From assembly GCA_026129915.1 (NCBI GenBank), contig JAHCHD010000038.1, positions 1 to 33,876 of the forward strand: 33,876 nucleotides of DNA. Direction: 5' to 3'. The DNA comes from Bryobacterales bacterium. Its GTDB lineage: Bacteria > Acidobacteriota > Terriglobia > Bryobacterales > Bryobacteraceae. Positions within the stretch are counted from its first letter, which is position 1. Each line of letters opens with the position of its first letter. Shown here piece after piece: positions 206-19,941 of this stretch. The translations under genes were made by a program, and so were the position numbers. The notes under the pieces were generated by a model that did no database searches, was not told where the DNA came from, and worked only from the letters and a program-made list of their open reading frames with translations.

Positions 206-219
206 GTGTCGTATGTGTT

Positions 220-243
220 GCTAGCTTGTACCGTATGGCTAGG
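220..243. promoter_or_regulatory. Shared operator-like palindrome, site A (traJ promoter)
   Basis: GCTAGCTTGTAC (220-231) is followed by GGCTAG (237-242), making CTAGC/GCTAG arms. The same 12-mer occurs at 10043-10054 before the primase and trbB genes. It lies 14 bases upstream of the traJ start codon, in a position suited to a promoter operator. Confidence 0.55.
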
Positions 244-248
244 CTACT

Positions 249-325
249 CGAAACAATCGTGATCCTCAAGAGAAATCGCACCCTGCACCGGCAATTCCTT
301 TATGTTCCACTACACGATTGTTTCG
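249..325. repeat. Perfect 13-bp inverted repeat within oriT
   Basis: CGAAACAATCGTG at 249-261 is exactly reverse-complemented at 313-325, with a 51-base spacer. Flanking bases do not continue the match. In IncP oriT an inverted repeat is the TraJ recognition element, so binding by the adjacent RHH protein or by TraK is the simplest reading. Confidence 0.75.
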
Positions 326-453
326 GGTGCCATGTTGCTGGGGTGTAGTCGCAACACTACGGCAGCGGTAGTGGGCAGACGGATGGCGGACTGGTGGCAG
401 ACAGTCTGTGACTTTGGGCGGCTTTGATGGGATTCTCAGCGAAAATATGCTAT

Positions 454-474
454 CTAGCTTGCATGCAGGCTAGC
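454..474. promoter_or_regulatory. Shared operator-like palindrome, site B (traK promoter)
   Basis: CTAGCTTGCATGCAGGCTAG (454-473) is a 20-base palindrome with a single mismatched pair. It shares CTAGCTTG and the GCTAG arm with sites A and C. It ends about 13 bases before the TTG start of traK. Confidence 0.55.
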
Positions 475-487
475 TGCTGCGGAATAC

Positions 488-11836: not shown

Positions 11837-14335
11837 ATGCAGGTGACGGAGCATCGGACGAGGGCGCAGGGGCTGGCGGATCTGCTGCTGTATGACTCGC
11901 TGGTGGATGACGGGGTGATGCTGCTGCAGGATGGGGCGCTGGTGGCGGCCTTCCGGTATCGGGGTCCGGATATGGCTTCGGCGACGCATGGGGAGATGGC
12001 GGCGCTGAGCGCGCGGCTGAACGGGCTGCTGAAGCTGGGGAGCGGGTGGATGGTGCAGTGCGACGCGATTCGTTCGCTGGCGCCAAGGTATCCGGCGCGC
12101 GGGGCGTTTCCGGATGCGGTGACGGCGGTGATCGACGATGAGCGGCGGCAGCAGTTCCTGCGGGAAGGCATGCACTACGAGAGCGAGTACTTCCTGGCGC
12201 TGACGTATCTGCCTCCGCTGGAGAACGAGGAGCGCGTGAAGGGGTTCCTGTTCGATGGGGGCGCGCGGGAGAAATCGGCGGCGCGGAAGGCCCTGGAGTA
12301 TTTCCAGTCCCGCGTGGCTTCGTTCGAGGATGTGTTCGGCGCGTTGCTGCAGGCTGAGCGGCTGCGGATGGTGCGTGAGCCGGAGGATGGAAGGCCGGGG
12401 GGTGCCGGGGCGGATAGTGATGGGCCGGGTGATGATGGCGCGGGCGTGGTGACGGATGAGTTGCTGCGCTATGTACATCGCTGCGTGACGATGCTGGACC
12501 ATCCGGTGGCGCTGCCCGAGGTGCCGGCATATCTGAGCGATTTACTGGGGTCGCAGGACCTGGTGGGCGGGGTGACGCCGAAGATTGGGCAGCATCATCT
12601 GCGGGTGGTTGCGATTGACGGGTTTCCGCGGCTGAGCCATCCGGGAATGCTGGCGGCGCTGGATTCGCTGGGCATTCAGTATCGGTGGCATACGCGGGCG
12701 ATCCTGCTGGATCCCGAGGAGGCACGGGCGATTCTCGACAAGACGCGGAGCAAGTGGCGCTCAAAGGTGCGCGGTTGGAAGGACCAACTGCTGCGAACGG
12801 AGACCGGCGCGGTGAACGCGTTCGCCGAGGAGATGGCGGTGGATGCCGAGGAAGCGATGAGCGTGGCGGCGTCCGGCGATGTGCAGTTCTGCCAGTACAC
12901 GAGCGTGGTGCTGTGCCACGGCGCGAATGAGCAGAAGTTGGAGGAAGACGTCGCGCTGGTGGTGAAGACGGTGCGAAACCTGGGGTTCGCTTGCCGGGTA
13001 GAGACGGTGAATGCGCTGGAGGCGTGGCGTGGGAGCTTGCCGGGGGACGGCTATCGCAATGCGCGGCGGGTGCTGCTGCATACGCTGAACCTGGCGGACA
13101 TGCTGCCGATTGCGGCGGTTTGGACCGGAGAGCGGGGGAATCCGTCGCCGCTGATGCCGCCGGGGAGTCCGCCGCTGTTGTTCGCGGCGACGACGGGGGC
13201 GACGCCTTTTCGGCTGAACCTGCATGTTTCGGACCTGGGGCACACGCTGGTGGTGGGTCCGCCGGGTGCGGGGAAATCGACGCTGCTGGCGACAATTGCG
13301 GCGCAATGGTTCCGGTATCCGCGGGCGCAGGTGTTCGCGTTCGACAAGGGCTATTCGCTGTTCACGTTGACGCGCGCAGCGGGCGGGGAGTTCTACGACA
13401 TCGGGGGCGAGTCGACGCGGTGGCAGTTTTGTCCGCTGCGGGAGATTGATGATCCGGCGGATGTGGCCTGGGCGGTGGAGTGGCTGGAAGGGCTGTGCGC
13501 GCTGCAGGACGTGAAGATTACGCCGCGGGAGCGGAATGCCCTGGCCGAGGGGGTGCGGTTGCTGCAGGGTTCTCCGACGCGAACGCTGACGGAGCTTTCC
13601 GCGAATGTGCAGGATGCAGAACTGCGCGAAGCGCTGCAGTATTACACGCTGGCCGGCACGATGGGACATCTGCTGGATGCGGATGCGGACATGCTGGGGG
13701 ACGGCCGGTTTCTGACGTTTGAGACCGAGCACCTGATGGGGCTGGGCGATAAGGCCGTGGTGGCGGTGCTGCTCTATCTGTTCCGGCGGATTGAGAAGCG
13801 GCTGGACGGGGCGCCGACGCTGGTGCCGCTGGATGAGGCGTGGGTGTATCTGCGGCATCCGCTGTTTCGGGAGCGCATGCGGGATTGGCTGAAGACGCTG
13901 CGCAAACGGAATGCCGCGGTGGTGCTAGCGACGCAAAACCTCTCCGATATCTTTCACAGCCCGATTCGCGATGTGGTGCTGGAATCGTGCCCGACGAAGA
14001 TCCTGCTGCCGAATGCGGAGGCGCCGAATCCGGCATCGCGGGAGTTCTATGGGTCCCTCGGATTGAATGAGCGCGAGATCAGCCTGGTGCAGACGAGCAT
14101 CCCGAAGCGGAACTACTACGTGATCTCGCCCGTGGGCAAGCGGCTGATCTCGCTGGGGCTGGGCGAGGTGGCGCTGGCGTTTGTGGGCGTGAGCGGGCGC
14201 GAGGAGTTGGCGCGTGTGCAGCAGTTCATGCTGCAGTACGGCGACGAGTGGCAGGCGGAGTGGATGCGTTCGCGCGGGTTGCGCGATTGGGCGGAGTTCT
14301 ACGAGCTGGTGCGGGACGGGGTGGAGGACCGATGA
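11837..14335 (+). CDS. trbE: TrbE, VirB4-family secretion ATPase
   Basis: An 832-residue ATPase of normal TrbE length. The N-terminal CagE/VirB4 domain spans about residues 1-430. The motor domain has Walker A GPPGAGKST (residues 474-482) and Walker B LVPLDEAWVY with D666-E667; RNAAVVLATQNLSDI and FYGSLGLNEREI follow, all typical of TrbE. It drives pilus biogenesis at the inner membrane. Its TGA overlaps the trbJ ATG. Long frames on the opposite strand are Arg/Pro/His-rich shadows of this high-GC gene. Confidence 0.97.
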   Translation: MQVTEHRTRAQGLADLLLYDSLVDDGVMLLQDGALVAAFRYRGPDMASATHGEMAALSARLNGLLKLGSGWMVQCDAIRSLAPRYPARGAFPDAVTAVIDDERRQQFLREGMHYESEYFLALTYLPPLENEERVKGFLFDGGAREKSAARKALEYFQSRVASFEDVFGALLQAERLRMVREPEDGRPGGAGADSDGPGDDGAGVVTDELLRYVHRCVTMLDHPVALPEVPAYLSDLLGSQDLVGGVTPKIGQHHLRVVAIDGFPRLSHPGMLAALDSLGIQYRWHTRAILLDPEEARAILDKTRSKWRSKVRGWKDQLLRTETGAVNAFAEEMAVDAEEAMSVAASGDVQFCQYTSVVLCHGANEQKLEEDVALVVKTVRNLGFACRVETVNALEAWRGSLPGDGYRNARRVLLHTLNLADMLPIAAVWTGERGNPSPLMPPGSPPLLFAATTGATPFRLNLHVSDLGHTLVVGPPGAGKSTLLATIAAQWFRYPRAQVFAFDKGYSLFTLTRAAGGEFYDIGGESTRWQFCPLREIDDPADVAWAVEWLEGLCALQDVKITPRERNALAEGVRLLQGSPTRTLTELSANVQDAELREALQYYTLAGTMGHLLDADADMLGDGRFLTFETEHLMGLGDKAVVAVLLYLFRRIEKRLDGAPTLVPLDEAWVYLRHPLFRERMRDWLKTLRKRNAAVVLATQNLSDIFHSPIRDVVLESCPTKILLPNAEAPNPASREFYGSLGLNEREISLVQTSIPKRNYYVISPVGKRLISLGLGEVALAFVGVSGREELARVQQFMLQYGDEWQAEWMRSRGLRDWAEFYELVRDGVEDR

Positions 14336-15078
14336 AAAGGCGATTGCGGGCGCTTGGACGGTGGGCGTTAGTGACGGTGCTGTGCGCGGTGCTGTGCGCG
14401 GTGCTGATTCCGAAGCCGGTGGCGCGCGGCGGGACGGTGGGCTACGCGACGGAGTGGACGCAGTTGCTGAACCACGCGCAACTGATTGACTCCTACATCC
14501 GGCAAGGCGAGGAGCTTCGGCAGCAGATCCAGATGGTGCTGGATATGGCGAAGAACTCGTTGGAACTGCCTTCGCAGGTGTTCGGGCCGATCATGCAGGA
14601 CATTGATCGACTGGCGGGGATTGTGCAAGGCGGGAGGTCTCTGGCGTATTCGATGGCGAATCTGGATGCGGAGTTCCGCAGCCGGTTTCAGGGCTGGGGC
14701 TATCGGGAACGGGCCTGGTTCCGGGACTACAAGGAATGGGCGGATACAAGCCTCGATACTACGCTAGGAACGCTTAAGGCGGCGGGGATGCAGGGGGCGC
14801 AACTCCGCGACGAGCAGGCGGTACTCGGCCAGCTTCGGGGGATGGCGCGAACCAGCCAAGGCCGAATGCGGGCGCTGCAGGTGAGCAATCAGATCCTGGA
14901 GCAGCAGGTGCAGCAGTTGATGAAGCTGCGGCAGTTGATGTTGGCGGATCTCCAGGCAAAAGCTGCCTTCCAAGCAGCTTCTGTGCAGAAAGAGGCGGCC
15001 CGTGAAGCTGGCGTCGAGAGGTTTTTCCGGTTTGGTGCGCGCACTGGGGATGGCCGGGGATTCGAGGCTGGCAAATGA
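14332..15078 (+). CDS. trbJ: TrbJ, VirB5-family pilus-tip protein
   Basis: A 248-residue exported protein. A Sec signal (RALGRWALVTVLCAVLCAVL, cleavage near ARGG) precedes TVGYATEWTQLLNHAQLIDSY, the usual TrbJ opening. A long helical region with QQIQMVLDMAKNS and QILEQQVQQLMKLRQLMLAD follows. The start is ATG 14332, overlapping the trbE stop, with GGAGG upstream. The signal core is encoded by a 12-bp tandem repeat (14377-14406, about 2.5 copies), which duplicates LCAV. Confidence 0.92.
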   Translation: MKRRLRALGRWALVTVLCAVLCAVLIPKPVARGGTVGYATEWTQLLNHAQLIDSYIRQGEELRQQIQMVLDMAKNSLELPSQVFGPIMQDIDRLAGIVQGGRSLAYSMANLDAEFRSRFQGWGYRERAWFRDYKEWADTSLDTTLGTLKAAGMQGAQLRDEQAVLGQLRGMARTSQGRMRALQVSNQILEQQVQQLMKLRQLMLADLQAKAAFQAASVQKEAAREAGVERFFRFGARTGDGRGFEAGK

Positions 15079-16640
15079 TGCGGCTGCCGGTGAGTGGAGG
15101 GCGGAACGGCGTTGATTGGGGTCGTCTGGCGAGGCTTGGAATTGTGTGTGGGCTCGCTCTGGTGGTGCTGGCGGATTCCGCACCCGCGCAGAACACGCCG
15201 AGTGCGATGCTTGACCAGTTTCGCTCTGTGCGGACCGCCTGGCTGAACACGGCAGCGGGCTATGCGAATCGGCTGTTCGGGATTCTCGCGCTGATCGAGT
15301 TTGCTTGGACGGGCGCGATCCTGGTGCTGGAACGGACCGACTTGCAGGGATGGACGGCGGCGCTGATCCGCAAAATGATGTTCATCGGCGCGTTCTTTGC
15401 CCTGCTGACGTTTGGCGCCGATTGGATTCCGCGGATCATCGAGAGCTTTCAGATCTTCGGGCAGACCGCATCCGGACTCAACTCACTGGCGCCGAGCGAC
15501 GTGCTGGCGATCGGCTTGAACGTGGTGGGCAACCTGCTTTCGGCGGCTGCCGAATCGGGATGGATGGCAAGTTTCGGCACGGCATTGGCGATGGTGTTTG
15601 CGGCGCTGCTCTCGTTTCTGGCTTTCCTCGGGATCACGGTGCAGTTGGTGGTCACCCTGGTGGAGAGCTACCTGGTGGTTGGTGCCGGATTCCTGTTCCT
15701 GGGCTTCGGCGGCTCGCGGTGGACGGCGCCGTATGTCGAGCGGTACATCGCGTTTGCGGTTTCGACGGGCGTGAAGGTGATGGTGCTCTATCTGATCCTG
15801 GGGGCGAGCCTGGCGCTTACACGGAATTGGGTGGATGAGTCGCAGCTGATTGCGGCAAGCGCGCAACCTGCCATTGATGCGCTAGACATCGCCGGTTCCG
15901 CCGTTTTGCTGCTCATGGTCTGCTGGAACGTACCGAAGCTGGCTGCGAGCGTCCTGGGTGGCGCCCCGGCGTTGACCGGCGGCGATGCGGTGAGCACCGT
16001 GGGCGGTGTGGCTCAGGGCGCACTCGTTGCTAGCGCAGCGGTTGCCGGTTTGGTGGCGCTAGGAGCAAAAGCGTCCGCAACCCGAGGTGCTGCGGTGTCG
16101 GTGAGCCAAGCCGCCGGGTCTGGCGCCGGAGCATCGGGCGGTGCGGCTGGAGGCGGGTCGTCCTTTGGTGGCGGTAGTGCAGGTGGTGCGGGTTCGAGTG
16201 GAGGTGCTTCGGGGTCTGCACCTCGGCGGCCCGGCGGGGGAAACCGAGGCAGTGGGGGCGGAGCCGGGAGTTCGGCGCCAAGCCTGGCTGACCGATCTGG
16301 ATCCTCTGGCAGCGAAAGCATGCCCACGCGAGCAAGTTCCGTGTCGCCTCCGCAGCGCGGCAGTCCACGTGGTTCCTCCGATGCTGCGCCCCCAGCCACG
16401 GGTGCGGCCAACACGGAAACCATGTCGCCGGGTGTACCCGCAAACATCGGCTTTTCGAAGGACCAATCGGAGCTCGGTGCAGCGGAGAGCCGCGCGACGC
16501 GGATCGTAAGCGCGAGCACCAATGCTGCAAAGAATCTGGCTGTGGGGACGCAGCTTACGCGGGCGGCCCAGGGTGCGGTCCCGCCGGATCATGCACCGCA
16601 GGCGACGCCGCCGAACTTGCGCATGGAGGATAGCGAGTGA
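15075..16640 (+). CDS. trbL: TrbL, VirB6-family polytopic membrane protein
   Basis: A 521-residue protein. A signal-like first helix is followed by several membrane helices across about residues 60-310, including ANRLFGILALIEFAW and LVESYLVVGAGFLFLGFGGSR, the latter being the TrbL/VirB6 signature region. A long Gly/Ser/Ala-rich low-complexity tail starts near residue 349, unusual in degree but common in the family. It forms part of the inner-membrane channel. The start overlaps the trbJ stop (ATGATG at 15075). The last bases overlap trbF. Confidence 0.94.
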   Translation: MMRLPVSGGRNGVDWGRLARLGIVCGLALVVLADSAPAQNTPSAMLDQFRSVRTAWLNTAAGYANRLFGILALIEFAWTGAILVLERTDLQGWTAALIRKMMFIGAFFALLTFGADWIPRIIESFQIFGQTASGLNSLAPSDVLAIGLNVVGNLLSAAAESGWMASFGTALAMVFAALLSFLAFLGITVQLVVTLVESYLVVGAGFLFLGFGGSRWTAPYVERYIAFAVSTGVKVMVLYLILGASLALTRNWVDESQLIAASAQPAIDALDIAGSAVLLLMVCWNVPKLAASVLGGAPALTGGDAVSTVGGVAQGALVASAAVAGLVALGAKASATRGAAVSVSQAAGSGAGASGGAAGGGSSFGGGSAGGAGSSGGASGSAPRRPGGGNRGSGGGAGSSAPSLADRSGSSGSESMPTRASSVSPPQRGSPRGSSDAAPPATGAANTETMSPGVPANIGFSKDQSELGAAESRATRIVSASTNAAKNLAVGTQLTRAAQGAVPPDHAPQATPPNLRMEDSE

Positions 16641-17383
16641 CATCGGAAGACATTCTCGAATTGTCAGGAACTGCCGGCGATGGGGAGCAGCGGCCTCCTG
16701 CGGAATACGGCCCTCGGTCCTGCGTTCCGCCGAAGCCGGCGGAGAACCGGTATCTCTCGGCTCGGCGGGAGTGGGACGAGCGATACGGCAATCTGATCAC
16801 GCGGGCGCGGAATTGGCGGATGGCCGCATTTGGCGCGCTTGCCGTCGCGCTTGTCGCCACCGGGGGAGTGGTCGCACTTTCCTTGCAGACGCGGATCATC
16901 CCGTTTGTTGTCGCTGTGGACAATCTCGGCCGGCCGGTTGCGTCCGGGCTGGCGGAGGCGGCGCCGGTCGCGGACGATCGGCTGAAACGCGCGGCGCTGA
17001 TTCAGTGGGTGTCCGACCTGCGAATGGTGACCTCCGATGGGATCTCGCAACGGAAGGCGATTGATCGGGTGTACGCAATGATTGCGCGGGGGAGCGCGGC
17101 GCAGTTGGAGGTGAGCGAGTTCTATCGCAAGGACCCGCCGCAGAAGCGGGCCCAGTCCGTGATGGTGAGCGTGGACGTGAAGGCGATCTACGCGAGCAGC
17201 GAGCAGACCTATGAAGTGGAGTGGGTCGAGACTACGCGGGGCTTGGGCGGCGATGTGCAATCGGAGCAAGCGTGGAAGGGTTCGTTCACGATCGCCGTCA
17301 ATCCGCCGACAGACGAACAGCTTGCGCGGGTGAATCCGCTCGGGGTGTATGTGACGAACGCGAGTTGGTCAAAGGTTCTGTAG
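16637..17383 (+). CDS. trbF: TrbF, VirB8-family assembly protein
   Basis: A 248-residue protein starting at GTG 16637, overlapping the trbL stop. A cytoplasmic N-terminus is followed by one membrane helix (about residues 59-80: MAAFGALAVALVATGGVVALS) and a periplasmic NTF2-like domain with IIPFVVAVDNLGRPV and QWVSDLRMVTSDG, characteristic of TrbF. VirB8-type proteins nucleate the secretion complex in the periplasm. Confidence 0.94.
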   Translation: MTSEDILELSGTAGDGEQRPPAEYGPRSCVPPKPAENRYLSARREWDERYGNLITRARNWRMAAFGALAVALVATGGVVALSLQTRIIPFVVAVDNLGRPVASGLAEAAPVADDRLKRAALIQWVSDLRMVTSDGISQRKAIDRVYAMIARGSAAQLEVSEFYRKDPPQKRAQSVMVSVDVKAIYASSEQTYEVEWVETTRGLGGDVQSEQAWKGSFTIAVNPPTDEQLARVNPLGVYVTNASWSKVL

Positions 17384-17389
17384 CGAGGG

Positions 17390-18589
17390 ATGTGGATGGG
17401 GGTACTGGGGATGTGGAGATCAAGTGTTGTGCTGTCGTTCGGTTTGGCCGTGATGGTCGCTGCGGGAGTCGGCCAGGAGAAGAAGCCCGGCGACTCTATA
17501 GGAAGGGTGTCTTCGCCAACAAAGCCAGCATCAACTTCGGCCCCGATGCAGGGCGTGCCGGCTGCTGCGGAATACCAGTTCGACGAACTGATTGGGGAGT
17601 TGCAGACCGACCCTCGTCGGTCCGGGCAAACCAACTCGTCCATGCCGGCGCCTTCGGGTAGTGTCCCGCTGTATCTGAAGCACGCGGATTCCGCGAGCGG
17701 TAACGAGAGCGATAGCGAGGTTCCCGCGGACTTTGTTGCAGGCAAGTCGGTCCCGCTGCCAGAGGATGCGAGCCAGGCGATTGACGTGGACAGTTCGTGG
17801 AAAAGCCAAAGCGCGCTTCCGAGTCCTGGTGAGGATGGGCGCGTGGTCTACACCTACGGTGCGGGTTTGCCAACAGTCGTTTGTGCCCCGTTGCGGCTCT
17901 GCGTAGTTGAGCTTGAATCCGGCGAAAGGCTGATCGGCGAACCCCACATCGGCGATTCGGTCCGGTGGCTCATTGATCCCGCGACTTCTGGTGAGGGATC
18001 TCTCGAACGGGCGTTGATTGTGGTGAAGCCGAAGGGGCCTGGCCTGGATACGAACATGCTGCTAACAACGGATCGGCGGCTGTATTATCTGCGCCTGGTT
18101 TCGACACCCTCCGAGTACATTGCACGAACCAGTTTCGAGTACCCGGCGGCGGAGACGGCTCGCTGGCAGGCGCATTTGCTGGAGAGTGAGCAGCGGCGGA
18201 AGGAGGCGGTTGAACAGTCGCAACTCGCCCCGCTGCGAACCATTGAGGATCTCTACTTTGACTATCGCGTTCTGGGAAAGCACCACGAGTTGCGGCCAGT
18301 GCGGATCTTCGATGACGGCGAGAAGACATACGTGCAGATGCGCGAGCAGATTCTGCACCGGGAGTTGCCGGTATTGGTTGTCGTGGGGACTCAGGGTCCC
18401 GAGATGGTGAACTACCGCGTGAAGGGAACTGTGTACGTGGTGGATCGGATCTTCGAACACGGGGCCTTGATTCTCGGCGAGGGCAAGAAGGCAAAGCGAC
18501 TGGACATTGTGCGCGGAACGTTCCGCGGCAAGGTGAAGGGGGACGGATTCGAGGCCAGCTTCTCAGGGAAACCGGAGGTGGAGCGATGA
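17390..18589 (+). CDS. trbG: TrbG, VirB9-family outer-membrane complex protein
   Basis: A 399-residue exported protein. A Sec signal (MWRSSVVLSFGLAVMVAAG) is followed by an unusually long Pro/Ser-rich stretch (about residues 30-155), longer than in typical TrbG. The VirB9 domain follows: VYTYGAGLPTVVCAPLRLCVVEL, then LIVVKPKGPGLDTNMLLTTDRR, RLYYLRLVS and, near the end, NYRVKGTVYVVDRIFEHGALILG. It builds the outer-membrane core with TrbI. Possible ATG starts are 17390, 17396 and 17411; the last keeps the cleanest signal peptide. Its stop overlaps the trbI start. Confidence 0.93.
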   Translation: MWMGVLGMWRSSVVLSFGLAVMVAAGVGQEKKPGDSIGRVSSPTKPASTSAPMQGVPAAAEYQFDELIGELQTDPRRSGQTNSSMPAPSGSVPLYLKHADSASGNESDSEVPADFVAGKSVPLPEDASQAIDVDSSWKSQSALPSPGEDGRVVYTYGAGLPTVVCAPLRLCVVELESGERLIGEPHIGDSVRWLIDPATSGEGSLERALIVVKPKGPGLDTNMLLTTDRRLYYLRLVSTPSEYIARTSFEYPAAETARWQAHLLESEQRRKEAVEQSQLAPLRTIEDLYFDYRVLGKHHELRPVRIFDDGEKTYVQMREQILHRELPVLVVVGTQGPEMVNYRVKGTVYVVDRIFEHGALILGEGKKAKRLDIVRGTFRGKVKGDGFEASFSGKPEVER

Positions 18590-19941
18590 CAAATCCGTTC
18601 CGGAAGCTAGAGTCCCCCAGCGGCATTGACCTGTACCCTGCTCCGCCCGCGGCAGTTCGGTTGAGCCGACGGGCGGGAGTGCTGGCGCTGATTGTCGTTT
18701 GCGGAGTGGTCGCGTTGATCGGGTATGGCGTGATCACGCGCCGTCAGCGATCCATCGAACTGGTGCAACTGGATGGGACGAAATCCGTAACCGCGGCGAC
18801 CGAGGTCGGGAAAACAATCGCGGACGAGGTTCCAGCCAAAAGTCTCGCCGGAACGGCGGAGGAATCCAGCCAGACCTCCGAGGGCGAAGAGTCTGTGGAT
18901 GAGGCTTGGGAGCCGGGTCCATCCTACACTCGGCCTGCGTGGCGTCCCCAAGCCCAACCTGTTGCGGCCCAAGCCGTAGCCACCGCTCCAACGGCCAGTA
19001 GCCTGAGCCCCGCCGAGGCGCGACGGCTCGCCGCATACCGCCTGGAGTTGCAGGCAATCGCAGCCCCGACGGCGACTGCTGGTGGAATTGGTACGAGGGC
19101 AGAGACTCCCACGATGGCGACGGGTACCGCCGCAGCCGGAGCGTCCGGTTCGCTGGTAGACCTGGTGCGAAATGCTATGGGCCGCTCGTCGGCCCCGACC
19201 AATCCGCTGGAAGCGCTTCTGCCAATCGAAGGTCAACCGAACGAGCGGGGCGAGGACGATGGACAGGACCTCCAAGACGCCCGGGAGCGGTTTCTGGAAC
19301 GCGCGCGACAGAACACCAAGGACGAGGTGTTACCAGCGACGCGTAGGCCGCCCTTGAGCCGCTACGAGATCAAGGCAGGGTGGGACATACCCGCCGTCTT
19401 GGAGCACGCACTGAACTCCGATCTGCCTGGTGAAGTGCGGGCGCTCGTTCGCGAAAGCGTGTACGACACGGCGACCGGAAGGTACCTGCTGATCCCGCAA
19501 GGTTCCCGCCTGGTGGGAATCTACGACTCCCGCATCGTCTACGGCCAGGACGGTCTAATGGTTGTCTGGAACCGCATCATCTTCCCAGACGGTTCGTCGA
19601 TTCACCTGGACGGCATGGCCAGTCAGGACGCTTCCGGCCAAAGCGGGATGAGGCACAAGGTGGATAACCACTACCGAAGGCTGTTGGGGTTTGCCGCGCT
19701 CACAAGTGTCTTCAGCGCGGCCTTTCAACTCTCCCAGTCGCCCCGCGGCGGGATCCTCGCCTACCCCTCGGCCGGAGAATTGGCTGGCACTGCGGTCGGT
19801 CGGGAGCTCTCACAGTTTGGATCGCAGGTAACGCGGCGTAATTTGAATGCGCAGCCGACAATTCGGGTTCCGGTTGGTTATCGATTCAACGTCCGAGTGA
19901 ATCGAGACGTCATATTCGGCAGATATGCACAATCTAAATAG
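18586..19941 (+). CDS. trbI: TrbI, VirB10-family core-complex protein
   Basis: A 451-residue protein. A cytoplasmic tail, one membrane helix (about residues 30-48) and a long Ala/Pro-rich periplasmic linker precede the conserved C-terminal VirB10 domain: YEIKAGWDIPAVLEHALNSDL, YLLIPQGSRLVGIYDS, WNRIIFPDGSSIHLDGM, VDNHYRRLLGFAALTSVFSA and RVPVGYRFNVRVNRDVIF. It spans both membranes and links the ATPases to the outer-membrane pore. It is the last recognised gene of the trb operon. No trbH, trbK or traG lies beside it. Confidence 0.95.
   Translation: MTNPFRKLESPSGIDLYPAPPAAVRLSRRAGVLALIVVCGVVALIGYGVITRRQRSIELVQLDGTKSVTAATEVGKTIADEVPAKSLAGTAEESSQTSEGEESVDEAWEPGPSYTRPAWRPQAQPVAAQAVATAPTASSLSPAEARRLAAYRLELQAIAAPTATAGGIGTRAETPTMATGTAAAGASGSLVDLVRNAMGRSSAPTNPLEALLPIEGQPNERGEDDGQDLQDARERFLERARQNTKDEVLPATRRPPLSRYEIKAGWDIPAVLEHALNSDLPGEVRALVRESVYDTATGRYLLIPQGSRLVGIYDSRIVYGQDGLMVVWNRIIFPDGSSIHLDGMASQDASGQSGMRHKVDNHYRRLLGFAALTSVFSAAFQLSQSPRGGILAYPSAGELAGTAVGRELSQFGSQVTRRNLNAQPTIRVPVGYRFNVRVNRDVIFGRYAQSK

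Follow-up and report, generated by a model that had tools for sequence, protein, structure and literature searches.

Positions 206-487 of the window, as the whole stretch of 33,876 nucleotides that was analysed is called here, most probably form the oriT of an IncP-like conjugative element of the Bryobacterales (Acidobacteriota), with a conserved core whose nick is most likely at 307/308 (probability roughly 0.87). On the strength of an RP4-like gene order, a relaxase gene to the left of traJ in the sister locus L006, and a core homologous to the IncP nic, the IncP-like oriT proposed in an earlier note on this DNA stands, whereas the nick position given there does not. Conjugation in the Acidobacteriota is little studied, and the core offers a searchable signature of 15-16 bases for conjugation origins in this phylum and on some Burkholderiales plasmids.

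Gene context of the probable oriT region

The window is the entire contig C266 of a Bryobacterales assembly (5.3 Mb, 333 contigs). Its left end cuts a traJ-like accessory gene on the minus strand (2-205), leaving only the 5' part with an RHH domain (PF01402, E 7e-6), and this fragment is 97% identical to a full 148-aa protein in L006. The traJ-traK intergenic region (206-487) separates this gene from divergent traK- and traL-like genes, with the same traJ-oriT-traK order and the same core strand as in pBS228, the IncP plasmid used as reference; it belongs to a block 86% identical in the same-genus sister genome G001, and its core is kept in all relatives. The traK-like gene (488-934, + strand) lacks any Pfam or NCBIfam match, ORFs 42-47% identical to it occupy the same place in L003, L005, L007-L011 and L015, and a profile of the gene and its relatives matches RP4-type TraK weakly (E 0.0024). 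The overlapping traL-like ATPase gene (931-1725, + strand; PF01656) matches NF010461 over its whole length with 254.4 bits, under the 360-bit cut-off for IncP TraL. The same element carries the P-type (MPF_T) mating-pair genes trbE, trbJ, trbL, trbF, trbG and trbI at 11837-19941 (+ strand), recognised through NCBIfam matches.

Two further genes were observed on the minus strand of the element. A sigma-70 family factor (1773-2492) comprising regions 2, 3 and 4, an unusual cargo for a transfer region, comes directly after traL, and a TIR-domain protein (PF13676; 5963-7120) is possibly a defence gene.

A profile search of the 333 contigs of the window's own assembly detected no PF03432 relaxase. 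The corresponding locus of the sister genome, L006, lies on a 170-kb contig (G001:C11) that extends past the window's left end, and beyond the oriT it encodes the full TraJ-like protein, a PF03432 relaxase, an ArdC-type antirestriction protein and TraG, this side being divergent from traK-traL. The pairing of traJ with an adjoining PF03432 relaxase, used as the mark of MOBP systems, was therefore found in the sister element and not in the window's assembly; by the terms of the earlier note, the lack of such a gene to the left of the window would have refuted its reading, and the sister element provides one. The L006 relaxase has 276 aa, scores 32.6 bits against PF03432 (cut-off 24.6) and carries the histidine motif HNTDHPHVH. 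Against the RlxS model (NF041267), it and the L009 relaxase reach 115.5 and 133.6 bits, respectively, through their N-terminal part only, and neither attains the whole-protein score of more than 850 bits. Judged by these profile matches, the sister-genome relaxase is of RlxS-like MOBP type.

The conserved core and the predicted nick

Across ten related traJ-traK regions one stretch is invariant, CTTTATGTTCCACTA at window positions 298-312, extended by a C to the 16-base core CTTTATGTTCCACTAC (298-313, + strand), even though the TraK and TraL proteins of most of these regions are only 27-67% identical. Among 200 genomes of the order, 42 contain the pattern CTTTATGTTCCACTA(C), with 64 copies in all, against none for the reversed pattern used as control. 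Since the 16-mer is rare in a phylum-wide sample (5 of 396 genomes), the core is a lineage feature and not a product of general composition. In a set of 65 diverged sites, at most 85% identical to one another and sharing the core by construction, CC follows the core in 86-89%, and almost nothing else is fixed. Neither the exact core nor a near version (up to three mismatches) was found beside Thalassospira and Rhodobiaceae TraL homologues, and a blastn comparison of the window's oriT with plasmids yielded nothing beyond weak matches to part of an unrelated coding gene. The sequence TTATGTTCCACTA is printed in no paper of the open-access literature searched (subscription journals and figures lay outside it), and no oriT paper is among the 20 of 90 matches listed there for parts of the cores.

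Both the nic of RlxS/DUF3363 systems (TTTTATCYTG|CC) and that of IncP (YATCCTG|Y) align with the core. Relaxases of the RlxS/DUF3363 type on plasmids have CTTTTATCTTGCC, CTTTTATCCTGCC or CTTTTGTCTTGCC 140-210 bp upstream, and the IncP nic TATCCTGC is contained within CTTTTATCCTGCC. An intermediate, TTTATCTTGCACTAC, is found in Phycisphaera, where plasmid pPSMK1 of Phycisphaera mikurensis carries CTTTATCTTGCACTAC, two bases off the window's core. The exact core also precedes the DUF3363 relaxase genes of Comamonas, Diaphorobacter, Acidovorax and Acidisarcina plasmids, which constitute an independent test because they were reached through the relaxase protein and not through the core. The published MOBP nick consensus is (C/T)ATCCTG(C/T), and the hexamer ATCCTG was reported to be required for in vitro cleavage by VirD2 and RP4 TraI (PMC3772185). 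At the homologous place the window's core reads TATGTTCC, thus departing from both the YATCCTGY consensus and the hexamer. Because it matches only three of the six ATCCTG bases, the proposed register depends on the intermediates seen in Phycisphaera and in RlxS systems. The core appears, from these alignments, to be a shared but divergent form of the IncP-type nick sequence in which the ATCCTG hexamer is missing. As this hexamer was reported to be a requirement, the departure from it makes the joint change of relaxase and nick sequence testable.

Alignment through TTTATCTTG|CACTAC and TTTTATCYTG|CC places the predicted nick after C307 on the + strand, at 307/308, giving TTTATGTTC|CACTA. Cleavage after TG is common among relaxases, and a cut elsewhere within the same core, for instance after TTTATG (304/305), would fit as TATG|; set against the alignment, such a position is unlikely, though a real minority option. 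Far less credible is the nick at 285/286 proposed in the earlier note. The sequence ACCCTG/CACCGGC is indeed present at 280-292 (+ strand), and ACCCTG|CACCGGC has CCTG|C in common with RP4 TATCCTG|C on the identical strand. The 13 bases ACCCTGCACCGGC are, however, fully matched only in L006, a locus almost identical over its whole length, and match at 3-7 of 13 positions in nine other relatives, while ACCCTG lies upstream near the core at one of the 65 diverged sites. This candidate, lacking conservation beyond L006, was rejected as non-functional, and an oriT nicked there is very improbable; the actual cutting signal is predicted to be the 16-base core, some 22 bases to the right of that position.

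Association of the core with relaxase genes

A relaxase domain lies within 630 bp of the core at 26 of 67 sites, mostly at 500-626 bp, and in 25 of these 26 cases it is divergent from the core strand. A TraJ-like ORF is interposed between core and relaxase in 20 of the 22 relaxase-bearing relatives tested. Viewed from the relaxase side, the core is present for 30 of the 34 relaxases of this clade whose upstream DNA extends for 1 kb or more, a proportion that does not come from a random sample, many genomes having been chosen for holding the core. The sister relaxase clade has TTT[AG]TCYTGCC at the matching place in 11 of 11 cases. In the relaxase tree, the sequences with TTT[AG]TCYTGCC group together in a clade of their own (99/90), those with TTTATGTTCCAC fall within a second clade of 38 rows (93/99), and Phycisphaera branches outside both. 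The divergent nick region is, as far as tree and flanking sequences indicate, tied to one relaxase clade.

At the other 41 of the 67 core sites no relaxase was found nearby, for some because the contig ends. A tyrosine recombinase lies within 4 kb at 13 of 28 relaxase-less loci, compared with 3 of 22 relaxase-bearing ones, and a few relaxase-less loci keep a TraJ-like gene (L087, L099, L166 and L169, plus L069 on the other strand). These sites look like candidate hitchhiker oriTs, or integrative elements mobilised in trans, a class that has reportedly been reviewed already; the core would then point to many candidate oriT-only hitchhiker elements.

The core could instead be a conserved operator or promoter element of the traJ-relaxase operon, as its place just upstream of traJ-like genes and its near-constant distance from the relaxase might suggest. 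Such a role would hardly account for its alignment with the nic of RlxS plasmids, which is only 140-210 bp from the relaxase, nor for the 41 sites elsewhere, several of them beside integrases, and the core stays constant where flanks and accessory sites vary. We consider this explanation improbable and retain the core as the putative nick region.

Core sites without a relaxase were noted at L069-L071, L074-L076, L078, L080, L087, L091, L101 and L164-L177, many beside tyrosine integrases. Paired core sites, in direct or inverted orientation and with no relaxase nearby, occur about 145 bp apart at L048 (321/464), L076 (4001/4146) and L042 (1501/1646), and about 340 bp apart at L074 (3470/3794). 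In an orphan group (L037, L048, L056 and L076) the core itself is a hairpin arm, GTTCCACTACC-GG-GTGGTGGAAC, after which CAGAAAGCTTCTG comes next in L048 and L056.

Repeats around the core

The exact 13-bp inverted repeat described in the earlier note (249-261/313-325) was confirmed and extends to arms of 16 bp that flank the nick core, ACTCGAAACAATCGTG (246-261) and CACGATTGTTTCGGGT (313-328), complementary at 15 of 16 positions. By our own estimate, about 0.0006 exact 13-bp inverted repeats would be expected by chance in 282 bases, and in 3000 exchanges of arms among related oriTs, no combination reached the score of the window's pair. Covariation maintains the pairing in 6 of 10 close relatives. 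Three sets of arms, unrelated to one another in sequence, are each complementary within the set (window/L006; L003; L005/L010/L015; P < 0.004 against swapped arms), and the more distant L047 likewise has pairing arms. The repeat is absent from the close relatives L007, L008, L011 and L077, and across all 65 sites the arms to either side of the core hardly outscore swapped ones (5.48 vs 4.94). IncP-type origins have an inverted repeat next to nic that is bound by TraJ; the repeat of the window has its arms on either side of the core and is a lineage-specific side feature. It was rejected as a family-defining feature, being restricted to the window's sublineage and L047 and absent from most of the family.

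Commoner across the family are 8-bp repeats, direct or inverted, near positions -90, -69 and -12 relative to the core; by comparison with the RHH proteins of other oriTs, they are likely accessory-protein sites. Between about +52 and +75 after the core (e.g. L005, L010 and L015), a 10-bp periodic repeat (TTGGAAT..TTAGAAC) containing the near-palindrome TACAAGCTAGCTTGTA precedes traK; it may be a site for TraK or a regulator and is weak or missing in the window. A noncoding segment outside the nick core at L059 (1844-2406; query positions 194-285) is 72-83% identical on Sphingobium, Xanthomonas, Acetobacter and other plasmids.

Proposed transfer mechanism

An RlxS-like MOBP relaxase would be encoded left of traJ, beyond the end of the contig and hence missing from the window. 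The TraJ-like RHH protein, and presumably TraK, would recruit this enzyme, which would cut CTTTATGTTC|CACTAC on the + strand, most likely at 307/308, and stay on the 5' end; TraG would then hand the strand over to the Trb channel. The variable repeats around the core (here 246-261/313-328) would act as accessory-protein binding sites conferring specificity. At even odds, a broader scenario may be drawn, in which a relaxase clade across Acidobacteriota and Burkholderiales plasmids moved to a nick sequence lacking ATCCTG, one invariant Bryobacteraceae core is common to many conjugative elements and to a larger set of relaxase-less, integrase-linked hitchhikers, and the variable flanking repeats decide which helper reads which oriT.

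Comparison with known systems

The transfer region resembles the TraI-TraJ-TraK system of RP4/RK2 (IncP-alpha) in its traJ-oriT-traK-traL order, the strand of the nick core, the TraL-like ATPase and the Trb channel. It differs in the core itself (CTTTATGTTCCACTAC vs TATCCTGC), in the much shorter relaxase of the Bryobacteraceae (276-500 aa vs 732) and in the repeat arms, which flank the core in the window; the accessory proteins are weakly similar. With the RlxS/DUF3363 systems (ICEMlSymR7A and Tn4371-like ICEs) it shares the relaxase lineage, as a partial NF041267 match, and the homologous nick core TTTTATCYTGCC. Unlike in those systems, the relaxase belongs to a sister clade, the core shows G/C and C/A changes, and traJ lies between oriT and relaxase, with traK-traL in addition. 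Closest in the core are the DUF3363 plasmids of Comamonas, Diaphorobacter, Acidovorax and Acidisarcina, on which an identical CTTTATGTTCCACTA lies upstream of the relaxase, TraL being annotated on the Comamonas plasmid at the same place as in the window, whereas their accessory sites and flanks are unrelated to the window's. These plasmids, the core-bearing Burkholderiales ones among them, are classed as 'non-mobilizable' by MOB-suite typing in PLSDB, and the core marks on them a candidate origin of transfer.
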